From a bacterium (lineage in GTDB: Bacteria; Myxococcota_A; UBA9160; UBA4427): a stretch of 64,000 nt of DNA. How positions within the stretch are numbered: position 1 is the first letter of the stretch; each line of letters opens with the position of its first letter. Positions 4,104 through 10,534 of the stretch are shown in pieces. A model generated the notes under the pieces. The model was not told the DNA's origin, ran no database searches, and saw only the letters and a list, made by a program, of their open reading frames with translations. The stretch covers positions 186,001 through 250,000 of the forward strand of contig JANSYR010000001.1 in assembly GCA_024742285.1 (NCBI GenBank). Direction: 5' to 3'. The translations under genes and the position numbers were made by a program.

Positions 4104-7100
4104 TCAGCGGAACGCGGCGCGCGCCTCCGCGAGCTTCTCGCGATAGGCGGCGGCGCGTTCGAGCTTCAGGTCCTCGTAGCCGCGAACCGAGTCCGGCAGC
4201 GACGCGAGCGCCACCGCGGCCTCGAGGCTCGGCGCATCGAGGCCTTCGAGGACCTCCTCGATCGCGTTTCGGTACTCCCCCGGGAGCGCCCGCTCGACGC
4301 GCCGGACTTCGGCGTAGCCGAAGACGTCGAAGGGCGTGCCGCGCAGGAACCGTCCCTTCGCGAGGAGCCGGACCAGCGGCGCGGCCCCGAAGCCGACCCG
4401 GATCTTCGTGCGGAGGCCGAGGGCGCGCAGGATCGGCGGATGGAGACGCCAGGCGATCCGGCCGTTCTCGCCCGCGACTTCACGGGCAGCGGCCAGCCCG
4501 TCCGGATTCGTCATCAGGCGCGCGACTTCGTACTCGTCCTTGTAGGCCGTCAGCTTGTAGAGCTGCTCGGCCACGACCCGGGTCAACCGACGACTCCCCG
4601 GGACCACGCGTTCCTCGCTCGCGAGGGTCGACTCGACCAGGTCGAGCCATCGTGCGGCCTCGGCCTGCCCGCCCCAGGCGACGAGCTCGCTCGCGAGCCG
4701 CCGGAGATCGGCGGCGAGGGCCTCGTCGACGTCGAGGCGCACGACCCGGGCTTCGAGGGGCGCCGGGACCGGATACGAGATCGAAGGGGCCACCGGGACC
4801 GGCGCCCGCGCGCCGGCGCGACGGGCTTCCGCGACGTCCTCGGGACACGCGACCTGCGCCCGGCCCCACCGGAACGCCGCGAGATTCGCGTCGACCGCGA
4901 CGCCGTTCAGACGGATCGCTTCCTCGAGGCGTTCGGCCGCGACCGGCAGGCAGCCCGCCTGGATCGCCATGCCGACGACGAAGAGGTTGGCCGTCGTCGC
5001 GTTGCCGAAGAGATCCTCGGTGATCGCGGCGGCATCGGCCCAGAAGCTCGCGTTCGGCCGGGTCCGCGCGCCGATCCGCTCGCTCAGCGCGGCCGCCGAG
5101 GGCAGCTGGACTTCCGGGTGCGTGATCATCTCGCCGGTGGGCGTCGCCGTCGTCGAGCCGACGACCGTCGTGCGCTCGGGGTCCGTCGTGAGGAGCCCCT
5201 TGTCCGAGGCCGCGACGAGCTGATCGAAGGCGAGGAGGAGGTCGGCCTGCCCCTCGCCGAGCCGATTCGTCGACGTCGGCGCCGTGCGCGAGAGACGCAG
5301 GTCGCTCACCACCGGACCGGCCTTCTGCGAGAGGCCGATCTGGTCGAGCCCGCGCACGTGGAAGCCGTCGAGCATCGCCGCCGTCCCGACGACCTGGGCG
5401 ACGGTCACGACGCCGGTCCCGCCGATGCCGGTGATCCGGACCGCGAAATCGTCCTCGGGGACGATCCGCGGAGGAGTCGGAGAGACCGGCGGCTCGGGCA
5501 CGGGGTCCGGGGCGGACGACGACGCCTTCTCGCTCATGCCCGTCACGGTCATGAAGGACGGACAGTCGCCTTCGAGGCACGAGTAGTCGAGGTTGCAGGT
5601 CGTCTGGTCGATCTCGGTCTTGCGTCCGAAGGGCGTCTCCACCGGCTGGACCGAGAGGCAGTTGCTGACCTGGCCGCAATCGCCGCACCCCTCGCAGAGT
5701 CGGTGGTTGATGACGACGCGATGGGGCGGCGTCTCGACCTTGCCCCGCTTGCGCGCCCGGCGCGCCTCCGCGGCGCAGCCCTGGTCGTGGATCAGGACCG
5801 TCGTGCCGGGGACCTCTGCCAGGACCTCCTGGGCTTCGATGATCCGATCCCGCGACCAGACCGAGACACCGGCCGGAAGCGAGATGGCGTCGTAGCGAGC
5901 GAGGTCGTCGGTCGTCACGATCACGCGGGCCACGCCCTCGTTGAGCAGCCCACGCACGACCCTCGGCACCTCGAGCTGCCCCTGCGGATCCTGTCCGCCG
6001 GTCATCGCGACCGTCCCGTTGTAGAGGAGCTTGTAGGTCACGTTCACGCCGGCGGCGACGCTCGCCTGGATCGCGAGCTGACCGGAGTGGAAGAAGGTTC
6101 CGTCGCCGAGGTTCTGGATGAAGTGGTCCCGGTCGAGGAAGTCGGACATCCCGATCCACTGCACGCCTTCGTTCCCCATGCAGCCGAGCCCGCCGATGTC
6201 GCCGACCCGCTTCTCGTCCATCAGCAGGACCATCGTGTGGCAGCCGATCCCCGCCCCGACCAGCGCCCCGTCCGGGACCCGGGTGCTCCGGTTGTGCGGG
6301 CAGCCCGAACAGAAGAAGGGGGAGCGGGCCACCGGGAGGACGGTGAGCGCGTCCTGCGGCGCGGGCTTCTCCGGCACGAGCCGGTCGGCGATCCGCGCCG
6401 AGAGACGTCGGCGCAGGACCGGGATCACGCCGTCCGCATCGAGGGCGCCGTGGCCCGGGACGAGGGGCGCGCCGTCGGCGTCCTGCTTGCCGACGATGAC
6501 CGGGCGATCGACCTCGGCGTAGAGCGCGTCCTTGATCAGGGACTCGAGTCCCGGGCGCTTCTCCTCGATCACGAGGACCTCGTGCAGCCCCTTCGCGAAG
6601 CCGCGGACCGTCGCCGGGTCGAAGGGCATCGGCATCCCCATCTTGAGCAGCCGGATCCCGCAGGCGGCGATGTCCTCGTCGCGGCGTAGGCCGAGCCGCG
6701 CGAGGGCCTCGCGCACTTCGCGGTAGGTGATGCCCGAGGAGACGATCCCGATCCAGGCATCGGTCGGGTCGACGGTCACGTGGTTCAACCGGTTCGCGGT
6801 CGCATACCGTCGCGCCAGCTCGTAGCGGACCTCGACGATCTCACGCTCGACCTCCACGGTTCTCGGCGTGAGGAGCGCGCCGTCGGCATGATGCTCGTAG
6901 AGCCGGCCGTCGATCCGCGGGATCACCGGCACGACGCGATCGGGACCGAGCTCGACGCTCGCGGTCGCGTCCGCCACGTCCGCCACGATCTTGAGGGCGC
7001 TCCAGAGTCCCGTCGTCCGGGAGAGCGCGATCGCGTGACGCCCGAGATCGAGGGCCTCGGCGGGATCCCCCGGATAGAGCAGCGGCACGTGCATGTCCGT

Positions 7101-7616
7101 CAGGACCCCGGCCGAGGACGAGGGCACGGTCGAGCTCTTGGCCGCGGGGTCGTCGCCGACGATCGCGACGGCGCCGCCGTGCATCGACGTCCCTGCGTAG
7201 ACCGCGTGGCGAAGCGCATCGGCCGCGCGGTCGACGCCCGGCGCCTTGCCGTACCAGAGTCCGACGATCCCGTCGTAGCGACAGTCCGGCTGGGCGGCCG
7301 CGAGCTGGGAGCCCATGACCGCGCTCGCGCCGTACTCCTCGTTCATCGCGGGGCGACACGAAATCGGCAGCTCCGGCGCGAGGGCCGCGGCCTGCGCGGC
7401 GGCCCGGTCGTAGCCACCGAGGGGAGAGCCCGGATAGCCGGAGATCAGCGCGGCGGTATGGAGGCCCGCGGCCCGATCCACGCGCAGCTGCTCGAGGGGG
7501 AGTCGCGCGAGGGCCTGGATCCCCGTCAGGAAGACCACACCCTCGTCCGACAGGTAGCGATCGTCCAGCGAGTAGCCGGACGTACGGTCCGAGTCCTTCG
7601 ACCTTCGATCGTCCAT
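4104..7616 (-). CDS. Indolepyruvate:ferredoxin oxidoreductase, fused alpha-beta type
   Basis: About 1170 residues from the ATG at 7616, which has a G-rich ribosome site; an in-frame start at 7673 is less likely. The N-terminal part is a pyruvate-oxidoreductase-like domain beginning SDEGVVFLTGIQALARLP. The thiamine diphosphate region has GLGCMGNEGVQ and NLGDGTFFHSGQLA. Cysteine motifs CSGCPHNRST and CEGCGDCGQVSNC, plus later cysteines, would hold 4Fe-4S clusters. The C-terminal gamma domain shows ITGIGGTGVVTVAQV and IGLSQKAGPVVSDLR. The enzyme oxidatively decarboxylates aryl pyruvates to acyl-CoA with ferredoxin. Length and domain order fit the single-chain bacterial form, so no separate iorA/iorB is expected. 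Confidence 0.92.
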   Translation of the reverse strand: MDDRRSKDSDRTSGYSLDDRYLSDEGVVFLTGIQALARLPLEQLRVDRAAGLHTAALISGYPGSPLGGYDRAAAQAAALAPELPISCRPAMNEEYGASAVMGSQLAAAQPDCRYDGIVGLWYGKAPGVDRAADALRHAVYAGTSMHGGAVAIVGDDPAAKSSTVPSSSAGVLTDMHVPLLYPGDPAEALDLGRHAIALSRTTGLWSALKIVADVADATASVELGPDRVVPVIPRIDGRLYEHHADGALLTPRTVEVEREIVEVRYELARRYATANRLNHVTVDPTDAWIGIVSSGITYREVREALARLGLRRDEDIAACGIRLLKMGMPMPFDPATVRGFAKGLHEVLVIEEKRPGLESLIKDALYAEVDRPVIVGKQDADGAPLVPGHGALDADGVIPVLRRRLSARIADRLVPEKPAPQDALTVLPVARSPFFCSGCPHNRSTRVPDGALVGAGIGCHTMVLLMDEKRVGDIGGLGCMGNEGVQWIGMSDFLDRDHFIQNLGDGTFFHSGQLAIQASVAAGVNVTYKLLYNGTVAMTGGQDPQGQLEVPRVVRGLLNEGVARVIVTTDDLARYDAISLPAGVSVWSRDRIIEAQEVLAEVPGTTVLIHDQGCAAEARRARKRGKVETPPHRVVINHRLCEGCGDCGQVSNCLSVQPVETPFGRKTEIDQTTCNLDYSCLEGDCPSFMTVTGMSEKASSSAPDPVPEPPVSPTPPRIVPEDDFAVRITGIGGTGVVTVAQVVGTAAMLDGFHVRGLDQIGLSQKAGPVVSDLRLSRTAPTSTNRLGEGQADLLLAFDQLVAASDKGLLTTDPERTTVVGSTTATPTGEMITHPEVQLPSAAALSERIGARTRPNASFWADAAAITEDLFGNATTANLFVVGMAIQAGCLPVAAERLEEAIRLNGVAVDANLAAFRWGRAQVACPEDVAEARRAGARAPVPVAPSISYPVPAPLEARVVRLDVDEALAADLRRLASELVAWGGQAEAARWLDLVESTLASEERVVPGSRRLTRVVAEQLYKLTAYKDEYEVARLMTNPDGLAAAREVAGENGRIAWRLHPPILRALGLRTKIRVGFGAAPLVRLLAKGRFLRGTPFDVFGYAEVRRVERALPGEYRNAIEEVLEGLDAPSLEAAVALASLPDSVRGYEDLKLERAAAYREKLAEARAAFR

Positions 7617-7726
7617 TCGCCCCCCGGCGCGCGGCGCGCCGTAGAGCATAGATCGGCACTCGGGACGCTCCAATCAAGTGCAGGCGGGATGCACCCGGGC
7701 GGCGGACCGAAAGCGGATCGAACGAA

Positions 7727-9166
7727 TCAGACGGCGATGCCGCTCTCGCGCAGCTTGCGGTCGACGCCCTCCCAGACGGCGGTCTCGGACCCGAAGCTGA
7801 TGTGAGACCCCTCGTACCAGACGATCTCGGGCTCTTCCCAGTGTCGCCAGAGATCGCGCACGTGATCCGGCGTGACGAGACGGTCGCCGGTGGCGCCGAA
7901 GAGGAAGCGGTTTTCCTTCGGCACCTGCGGCGTGAGCGACGTCGGCGTGATCACCCGGAGCAGATCCGCCGCGCGGTCGAGATCGAAGCCCAGCGACTTC
8001 GCCCAGGCGAGCTGGGCGGCGGGCGCATGTCGCCGGAGGATCCGTTCGATCGACATGAGCGGAATCCCCGGCAGCGCCGCGGAGAGCCCCGTCGCGAGGC
8101 TCGCGAAGTTCGCGGTCGTGAGGCCGCCGAGCGAGAGGCCGAACGCCCCGATCGCGGGCGCGTCCTGGGCACGTACCCAGGAGAGCAGACGGCGCATGTC
8201 CCAGAGTCCCTGGGTCTCGGCATGGATCGTGTCGAGGACGTCGACGCCGAGGAATCCCTGTCCCGAGTGCCAGTGGGTCTTGCGCGGTCCATGGAGCGGC
8301 AAGACGGGAATCAGGAGGTTCACCCCGAGCCCCGCCGCCCCCTGGCTGCCGGGCCGTCCGTAGTCCTTGAAGAAGCGCGCGAAGAGCGAGACGTCGATCC
8401 GCGCGTGCCCCATGCGGTAGCCGTTGGTCGCGATCAGCCACGGGCGCGGCGGTCCTTCGTGACGGAGGACGTAGGCCCAGGCTTCTCGGCAGGGTTCGTA
8501 GCCGAGCCAGCGCTCACGACCGGGCTCGCCTTCCGGCGGCGCGTAACCACTCTCGAAGCGAAGGATCTCGACGCGCTGCCTGGCGATCTCTTCCACCCGC
8601 ACGTCCGGATCGACGAGGTCCGGAGGCGTCACGTGATAGGTCTCGGGCTTCTCGAGGAAGCCTTCCCGGGTGAAGAACGAATGGGCCCGATCGAGCTCGT
8701 CGATCACCCGGTCGAGGGTTCCGTCGGTCGGGATGGCGCCGGTCCCCGAGAGTGTCTCGAAGCCGAGGATGGCCTCGTCGACCGCGACCTTCGCCGCGGT
8801 GGAGACGCGGGTTCCCGGCTTCGGCACGCCCTCGACGTGGGGCTCGACCTGGATCGCCATTCGGCCCGCGCCCCACGCGCCGACCAGCGCCGAGAGGAAG
8901 AGCGCGGCGCCGGCGCCGAATCCGACGAAGAACGACATCGGCAGGGCGACGAGCGCGCCGGCGAGACCGGCGAAGGCGCCGAGCTGGGTGATGCGGTGAT
9001 CCCCGGGCGCGAGAAGCTGCATCACGCCGGAGGCGCCCAGACCCGCGCCGATGAGGCCGATCGGGAGGGCGGCCAGCCCCGAATGCGAGGCGGCGATCGA
9101 GATCCAGACGATCCCCGCCACGAGGGTCGGGGCCGCCCAGATCGAGAAGCGCGGCTGTTCGAACAA
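7727..9166 (-). CDS. Alpha/beta hydrolase with N-terminal membrane anchor
   Basis: 479 residues. The first about 105 residues hold four hydrophobic segments in two hairpins (11-50 and 64-100), so the catalytic part is membrane-tethered. A soluble linker leads to an alpha/beta hydrolase fold with nucleophile elbow GLSLGG (Ser345), acid Asp428 in GDRLVTP and His455 in EGSHISF, in the right order and spacing. The layout resembles the DUF2048/ABHD18-type hydrolases. The substrate is not readable; an ester or acyl lipid is plausible. It sits between the oxidoreductase and the predicted selenoprotein on the same strand, 33 bases after the latter. Confidence 0.8.
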   Translation of the reverse strand: MFEQPRFSIWAAPTLVAGIVWISIAASHSGLAALPIGLIGAGLGASGVMQLLAPGDHRITQLGAFAGLAGALVALPMSFFVGFGAGAALFLSALVGAWGAGRMAIQVEPHVEGVPKPGTRVSTAAKVAVDEAILGFETLSGTGAIPTDGTLDRVIDELDRAHSFFTREGFLEKPETYHVTPPDLVDPDVRVEEIARQRVEILRFESGYAPPEGEPGRERWLGYEPCREAWAYVLRHEGPPRPWLIATNGYRMGHARIDVSLFARFFKDYGRPGSQGAAGLGVNLLIPVLPLHGPRKTHWHSGQGFLGVDVLDTIHAETQGLWDMRRLLSWVRAQDAPAIGAFGLSLGGLTTANFASLATGLSAALPGIPLMSIERILRRHAPAAQLAWAKSLGFDLDRAADLLRVITPTSLTPQVPKENRFLFGATGDRLVTPDHVRDLWRHWEEPEIVWYEGSHISFGSETAVWEGVDRKLRESGIAV

Positions 9167-9199: not shown

Positions 9200-10534
9200 T
9201 CAGTCGGCGCGTCTGCGCGCCATGGTTCGCATGATCCGTCGGAAGATCGGCCGTGTCACCTGACCGAGGAAGCGCTGGACCGGCGTCACGATCTTCGTCC
9301 GTTCCGCGGCCGCGAAAGCGTCGATACCGAGCTCGTCACGGATCGTCGCCGTTCCGACGTTGACCACGGTATCGAGGGGAATTCCGGTTCCGTCCGCGAT
9401 CCGGACCATCCGCTCGAAGTTGCCGATCACCCCCGCTGCATCGACGAGCGCCGGCGCCCCCAGGACCTCGCGCACATGACCCCGCGCCTTCGCGATCGCC
9501 GCCTCGTCCTCGAGGAGCGCCGCCTCCACGAACCCGACGAGCGCGTCGGCGCCGGGGATCGCCGACTCGGAGGCGGCATCGCCGTCGGTGATCGCGCGCA
9601 GGTCGACCGCGCCGCCTTCGATCTCGATGCTCTCACGGAGCATCATCGCGTGCGAGCTCGTTCAATAGAAACACTCGTTGAGGGCGGACACGCGGCCTGC
9701 GATCAGCTCCGTCTGCGCCCGGGACAATGGCCCCCTCCCCCGCGAGAAGTCCATCATCTCTCCGCCCGCCATCGGCAGGTAGTGCGCCTGGGACAGATCC
9801 TTCAGCCAACGGACGCCGTCGGGCACGAGGCTCAGCGCCTTGATCACGTTCGGGACCATCGGCGCTGCCGGGAAGAGATCGTCGTTCTCCGCCTCGAGCT
9901 TCGCCGGCACGATCAGCGGCACCCAGGCGGTCCTGGTCTCGGTCACCGCCGGCCGCTTCCGGCTCGGCGCTCCCGTCTCGCTCGCCGGGAACGGCGTCGG
10001 CAAGGGCTCGGGGGCGAGCCCCATGGCGCGGTGAAACGCGTCGATGCTGCGGATGGCGACGACGATGCTCAGGAGCTCCACATAGTGGGTATCGGGTACG
10101 CCCTTCTGCGCCAGACCCTCGATCCAGCTGCCGCTGAGCCGCGTCGCGTCGGTGACCAGGCGATGGACCGCGTCGACGGCAGCCCTGGGAAGCACGTCTG
10201 CCGTGACGTGGGCGTGCTCCCCCTCGACGGAGAAGGGCGAGAGCGCCTCGCGCCGCTCCCGACAGAACGGGCAATAGACCGCCGCGCGCGTCTCGGCGGC
10301 GATCGCGACGCGCTCCTCGGCGGTCCACCAGGTTCCGGGGCGGGCGAGTCGCGCCCAGGCGCGTCGATGCGCGGCCGGAATGTCCTCGCGGATCGCATCC
10401 GAGAGCGCACCCGACGAGAACGCACCGGCGTAGTCGAAGGCCCCTTCGAAGGCCGCGGCGAAGCCCGGCACGAAGGCTTCGTCCCGCGCGGAGGTCGCGT
10501 CGGCAGCGATGGGTCGCGTGGAAGCGGCGGCCAT
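9200..10534 (-). CDS. AhpD/CMD-like alkylhydroperoxidase-related selenoprotein (in-frame TGA = Sec291)
   Basis: Two open frames, 9662-10534 and 9200-9646, are in the same phase and separated only by TGA at 9664-9662 plus five sense codons (T-S-S-H-A). Read through, they make a 444-residue protein in which TGA falls in the CMD/AhpD redox signature: NECFY-U-TSSHAMML, where the family has N-x-C-x-Y-C-x-x-x-H. So the second, attacking cysteine of C-x-x-C is replaced by selenocysteine. A hairpin of bacterial SECIS type lies directly downstream (separate entry). The N-terminal half carries a second C-x-x-C (AVYCPFCRERR), suggesting two CMD-like domains. The start ATG has GAGG upstream. AhpD-type C-x-x-U selenoproteins are known; the expected role is thiol/selenol reduction of organic hydroperoxides. 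The second half alone lacks the active site, so two separate genes are unlikely. Confidence 0.85.
9626..9644 (-). promoter_or_regulatory. Predicted bacterial SECIS hairpin within the selenoprotein coding sequence
   Basis: On the minus-strand transcript, 17 bases after the UGA, a perfect 7-bp stem GATGCTC / GAGCATC encloses the 5-base loop CGTGA, extendable by one U-G pair. The apical loop starts 25 bases after the UGA and has G as its second base. Both fit the usual bacterial SECIS rules: a small loop with G in the first two positions, roughly 16-37 bases from the UGA. SelB would bind it to direct Sec-tRNA to the UGA. The bases also encode M-L-R-E-S-I. Confidence 0.75.

Follow-up and report, generated by a model that had tools for sequence, protein, structure and literature searches.

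Does the short hairpin that follows an in-frame UGA at this locus serve as a bacterial SECIS (bSECIS), and is the UGA read as selenocysteine (Sec)? The locus lies in a 64-kb stretch of DNA, called here the window. On its minus strand a reading frame runs from 10534, where an ATG is the likeliest start codon, to the TGA at 9664-9662 and goes on beyond it, in frame, as far as 9200. The features concerned are these:

9200..10534, minus strand: gene for a putative AhpD-related selenoprotein of 444 amino acids (matches to NF041238 and PF02627; frame kept across the TGA in all homologues)
9662..9664, minus strand: in-frame UGA, predicted to be read as Sec (Cys position of the AhpD CxxC-xxx-H motif; TGA shared by the family)
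9626..9644, minus strand: predicted bSECIS hairpin, 7-bp stem with 5-nt loop (sequence, homologue conservation, folding)
9638..9644, minus strand: 5' arm, GATGCTC (G[A/C]TGCTC in most homologues)
9633..9637, minus strand: apical loop, CGTGA
9626..9632, minus strand: 3' arm, GAGCATC (GAGC[A/G][T/G]C in most homologues)

Translated through the UGA, the protein scores 453 bits over residues 48-408 against the curated NCBIfam profile NF041238 (AhpD_rel_CFYUT), whose cut-off is 175 and which describes alkylhydroperoxidase-related (seleno)proteins; it also carries the CFYU-T motif of that family and matches the CMD domain PF02627. Sec would be residue 291, in CFYU-TSSH (CFYUTSSH; context SALNECFY-U-TSSHAMMLRESIE), and the UGA occupies the second Cys position of the AhpD-type CxxC...H motif. 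The phylum was represented by 377 genomes, and each of their 92 matches above the NF041238 cut-off contains exactly one in-frame TGA. A standard ORF caller would split such a gene in two. The AlphaFold model of the selenoprotein has a pLDDT of 90, and its structural matches are the AhpD-type peroxidase-related entries 6k40, 2prr and 3c1l (probability 1.00) and, more weakly, Sestrin2, none of them reaching an E value of 0.001. Judged from family and motif only, the protein is likely to be a Sec-dependent AhpD-like thiol redox enzyme or peroxidase. Its N-terminal part holds another CxxC (YCPFCRER, residues 88-91), near-invariant in the homologue alignment; together with the weak match to Sestrin2, this suggests a tandem AhpD-like architecture.

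The original prediction described a perfect 7-bp stem, GATGCTC/GAGCATC, at 9626-9644, with a CGTGA loop that has G at its second position and begins 25 bases after the UGA; all of this can be read directly on the minus strand. The hairpin occupies nucleotides 18-36 after the UGA, so that 24 nt separate the UGA from the first loop base at nucleotide 25. The bSECISearch model of Zhang and Gladyshev (quoted in PMC13188914) allows a loop of 3-9 nt, a stem of 4-16 bp, a spacing of 16-37 nt and a minimum free energy (MFE) of at most -7.5 kcal/mol, and expects a G at loop position 1 or 2 with G or U as the next base, the G[G|U] rule. None of these constraints fails here: the stem of 7 bp, the loop of 5 nt with the sequence C-G-U-G-A, the 24-nt spacing and the -8.8 kcal/mol of the isolated 19-nt hairpin all lie within the model.

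Such a fit says little on its own. The window has 1023 TGA triplets, of which 26 (2.5%) are followed by a Watson-Crick 7-bp hairpin within the same limits on spacing (16-37), loop size (3-9 nt) and G among the first two loop bases, and a looser model of four pairs including GU fits after 77% of the triplets, which makes the isolated hairpin weak evidence. The earlier argument that placement makes chance less likely is thus weak by itself; it is the conservation among 94 homologues that goes far beyond what chance would give. When this gene is recoded synonymously, the 45-nt stretch that begins at the UGA reaches the native stability in only 0.2% of cases, although the minimum-energy structure of so short a piece differs from the hairpin. 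The 65-nt fold contains the hairpin, with an unimpressive dinucleotide-shuffle z-score of -1.08; synonymous recoding makes a better null here than shuffling. An Rfam scan of 9400-9900 returned nothing relevant.

A more stable fold that hides the loop had been named as grounds for rejecting the element. One was found, confined to the isolated piece of UGA plus 48 nt: that piece prefers another structure (-15.7 kcal/mol), in which a competing helix pairs the nucleotides immediately 3' of the UGA, and folding only the 48 nt that follow the UGA gives the hairpin a probability of 0.17. The inner pairs of the hairpin form with a probability of 0.97-0.99 once the fold includes 62 nt on the 3' side or leaves out at least the first 6 nt after the UGA. 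The ribosome should cover these UGA-proximal nucleotides when the UGA is in the A site. Across homologues, mean hairpin probability is 0.62-0.86, compared with 0.02-0.10 for synonymous recodings.

It is the comparative evidence, rather than the single sequence, that appears to settle the identity of the element. We assembled 94 distinct Sec sequences, from records titled Myxococcota or Deltaproteobacteria, Gammaproteobacteria, Alphaproteobacteria, Acidobacteria, Vicinamibacterales and one Actinomycetes MAG; for other phyla, six genomes reached through homologous loci were searched. The hairpin stands at the same position throughout, with all seven pairs in 79 of the 94 and at least five in 93, so that the Sec orthologues without a stem that would have spoken against the prediction did not turn up. 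The mean is 6.76 of 7 pairs, compared with 3.76 when codons are redrawn synonymously from the same genes (maximum 4.28 in 2000 draws). Given the alignment alone, RNAalifold proposed the same seven pairs unprompted, and when the 3' arm was slid by 1-3 alignment columns, only 28-56% of cells remained paired, compared with 97% in register. In every homologue the second loop base is G, and the third is U in 59 and G in 35.

The clearest sign of a SECIS in these sequences is the fixation of codons. Leu+8 is written CTC in 93 of 93 cases, with no other Leu codon. Arg+9, which supplies the loop bases C-G-[U/G], is CGT or CGG in all 90 cases and never CGC, although CGC makes up half of the Arg codons elsewhere in these genes; Ser+11 is AGC or AGT in 89 of 89 and never TCN, although two in three Ser codons elsewhere are TCN. 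Codons +7 and +10 end in G in 94 of 94. On the protein tree the third base of Arg+9 shows 22 or more changes, always between T and G and never to C or A, whereas the conserved Arg -10 mostly has C and G there; most other synonymous positions of the gene that are free to vary show about 23-39 changes. This restriction to T or G is what the published bSECIS model (PMC13188914) prescribes for the loop as G[G|U]. The set shows on a large scale how strictly a bSECIS freezes synonymous codons and should be a useful training or benchmark case for bSECIS models.

Compensatory change is concentrated at one well-covered pair, 19-35 (alignment columns 22-38), where C-G switches to A-U with both sides altered in 25 of 91 sequences. 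This switch amounts to only about three changes on the tree, and an independent-pairs test of it does not reach significance; we therefore dropped covariation as sole proof of the stem. At the protein level, most sequences couple Met+7 with Ile or Val+12, and Leu+7 with Gly or Ser+12. RNA pairing at 19-35, not enzyme function, might dictate these amino acids near the active site, a tentative reading that we hold to be somewhat doubtful and that rests on the same three or so changes.

The stem had been expected to be dispensable in Cys-containing homologues, and it is indeed missing from distant CxxC relatives, taken from within the phylum and from two other genomes, which have mostly 1-4 scattered pairs of the seven. 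No Cys orthologue above the NF041238 cut-off was seen. The contrast between conservation in Sec genes and absence from Cys genes thus holds, with its Cys half drawn from remote relatives, a weaker control than true Cys orthologues would be.

These data bear on three other explanations. The UGA might be a true stop separating two adjacent genes of 290 aa (9662-10534) and 148 aa (9200-9646); the ORF list does split there, with an ATG 15 nt further downstream. A single NF041238 profile nevertheless spans both halves, every homologue keeps the frame across a UGA at this position, the UGA falls on the catalytic Cys position, and the genome has Sec machinery, all of which makes a true stop vanishingly improbable. 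Alternatively, the UGA might encode Sec while the hairpin is a chance product of GC-rich coding sequence, the SECIS lying elsewhere or not being needed. The loose matches after 77% of the TGAs of the window, and the 7-bp ones after 2.5%, speak for this, but in the 94 homologues the synonymous positions that make up stem and loop stay fixed, whereas most free positions elsewhere in the gene change 23-39 times, which refutes chance on statistical grounds and leaves it very improbable.

The stem could also be conserved for the sake of the protein, since residues LLR-x-S are highly conserved. Against this, the synonymous codons are fixed as well, with CGC, TCN and non-CTC Leu codons all absent, and in most of the distant Cys homologues neither LLR-x-S nor the stem is present; we consider a purely protein-level cause highly improbable. 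The bSECIS reading, by comparison, was supported by every comparative test that we ran. The hairpin at 9644-9626 on the minus strand is thus, with a high degree of confidence, the bSECIS of an AhpD-related selenoprotein whose UGA would be read as Sec.

The host genome encodes a complete Sec-decoding set of selA, selB, selD and tRNA-Sec; its SelB carries the winged-helix domains SelB-wing_2 and SelB-wing_3, and the anticodon of its tRNA-Sec is TCA. The selD gene (G000:C16:123873-124790) lies within a 791-aa open frame and may encode a fused protein. Among genomes with an NF041238 match above the cut-off, 56 of 57 have selA, compared with 184 of the remaining 320 genomes of the phylum; the one genome without it, G191, has a completeness of 85%. 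Searched with a covariance model of this SECIS, the host genome yielded no second copy (best other match E = 0.4), so that other selenoproteins of the genome, if any, would use different SECIS sequences.

From what is known of Sec decoding, the hairpin would sit just outside the mRNA entrance when the UGA at 9664-9662 is in the ribosomal A site. SelB would then bind its G-U loop through the winged-helix domains and deliver Sec-tRNA-Sec, so that Sec is inserted instead of a stop. Sec would be the catalytic residue of the CxxU...H AhpD-type redox site, serving peroxidase or thiol-redox chemistry. The hairpin, the codon constraint, the family assignment and the machinery genes behind this scheme are all read from sequence. 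In the SECIS of Escherichia coli fdhF, a hairpin likewise lies downstream of the UGA inside the coding sequence and presents G-U in its apical loop; the element described here differs in its 7-bp stem without a bulged U.

Both the protein family and this type of signal are already known, and the present case is a well-supported but ordinary example. Among the entries of the Sargasso Sea selenoproteome study of 2005 is a hypothetical protein 1 with a CXXU motif, whose predicted SECIS is listed in a figure (PMC1088965), and a 2026 review equates this protein with NF041238 (PMC13188914). As far as that figure's listing goes, the two share family, CxxU motif and a predicted SECIS, and differ only in organism.

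Other CxxU or UxxC candidates in the window, inspected by eye, were not gene-like. In several relatives (homologous loci L077, L078 and L080), two divergent copies of this gene lie within ~1-2 kb of each other on opposite strands, and at L078 and L080 each of the two copies has a SECIS hairpin of its own. Directly downstream of the selenoprotein gene in the window, the minus strand encodes a 479-aa protein (7727-9166) with no Pfam match that looks by eye like an alpha/beta hydrolase (GLSLGG). Two genes downstream, at 4104-7673 on the same strand, follows a large indolepyruvate-ferredoxin-oxidoreductase-like protein with TPP C-terminal, POR and DUF6537 domains.
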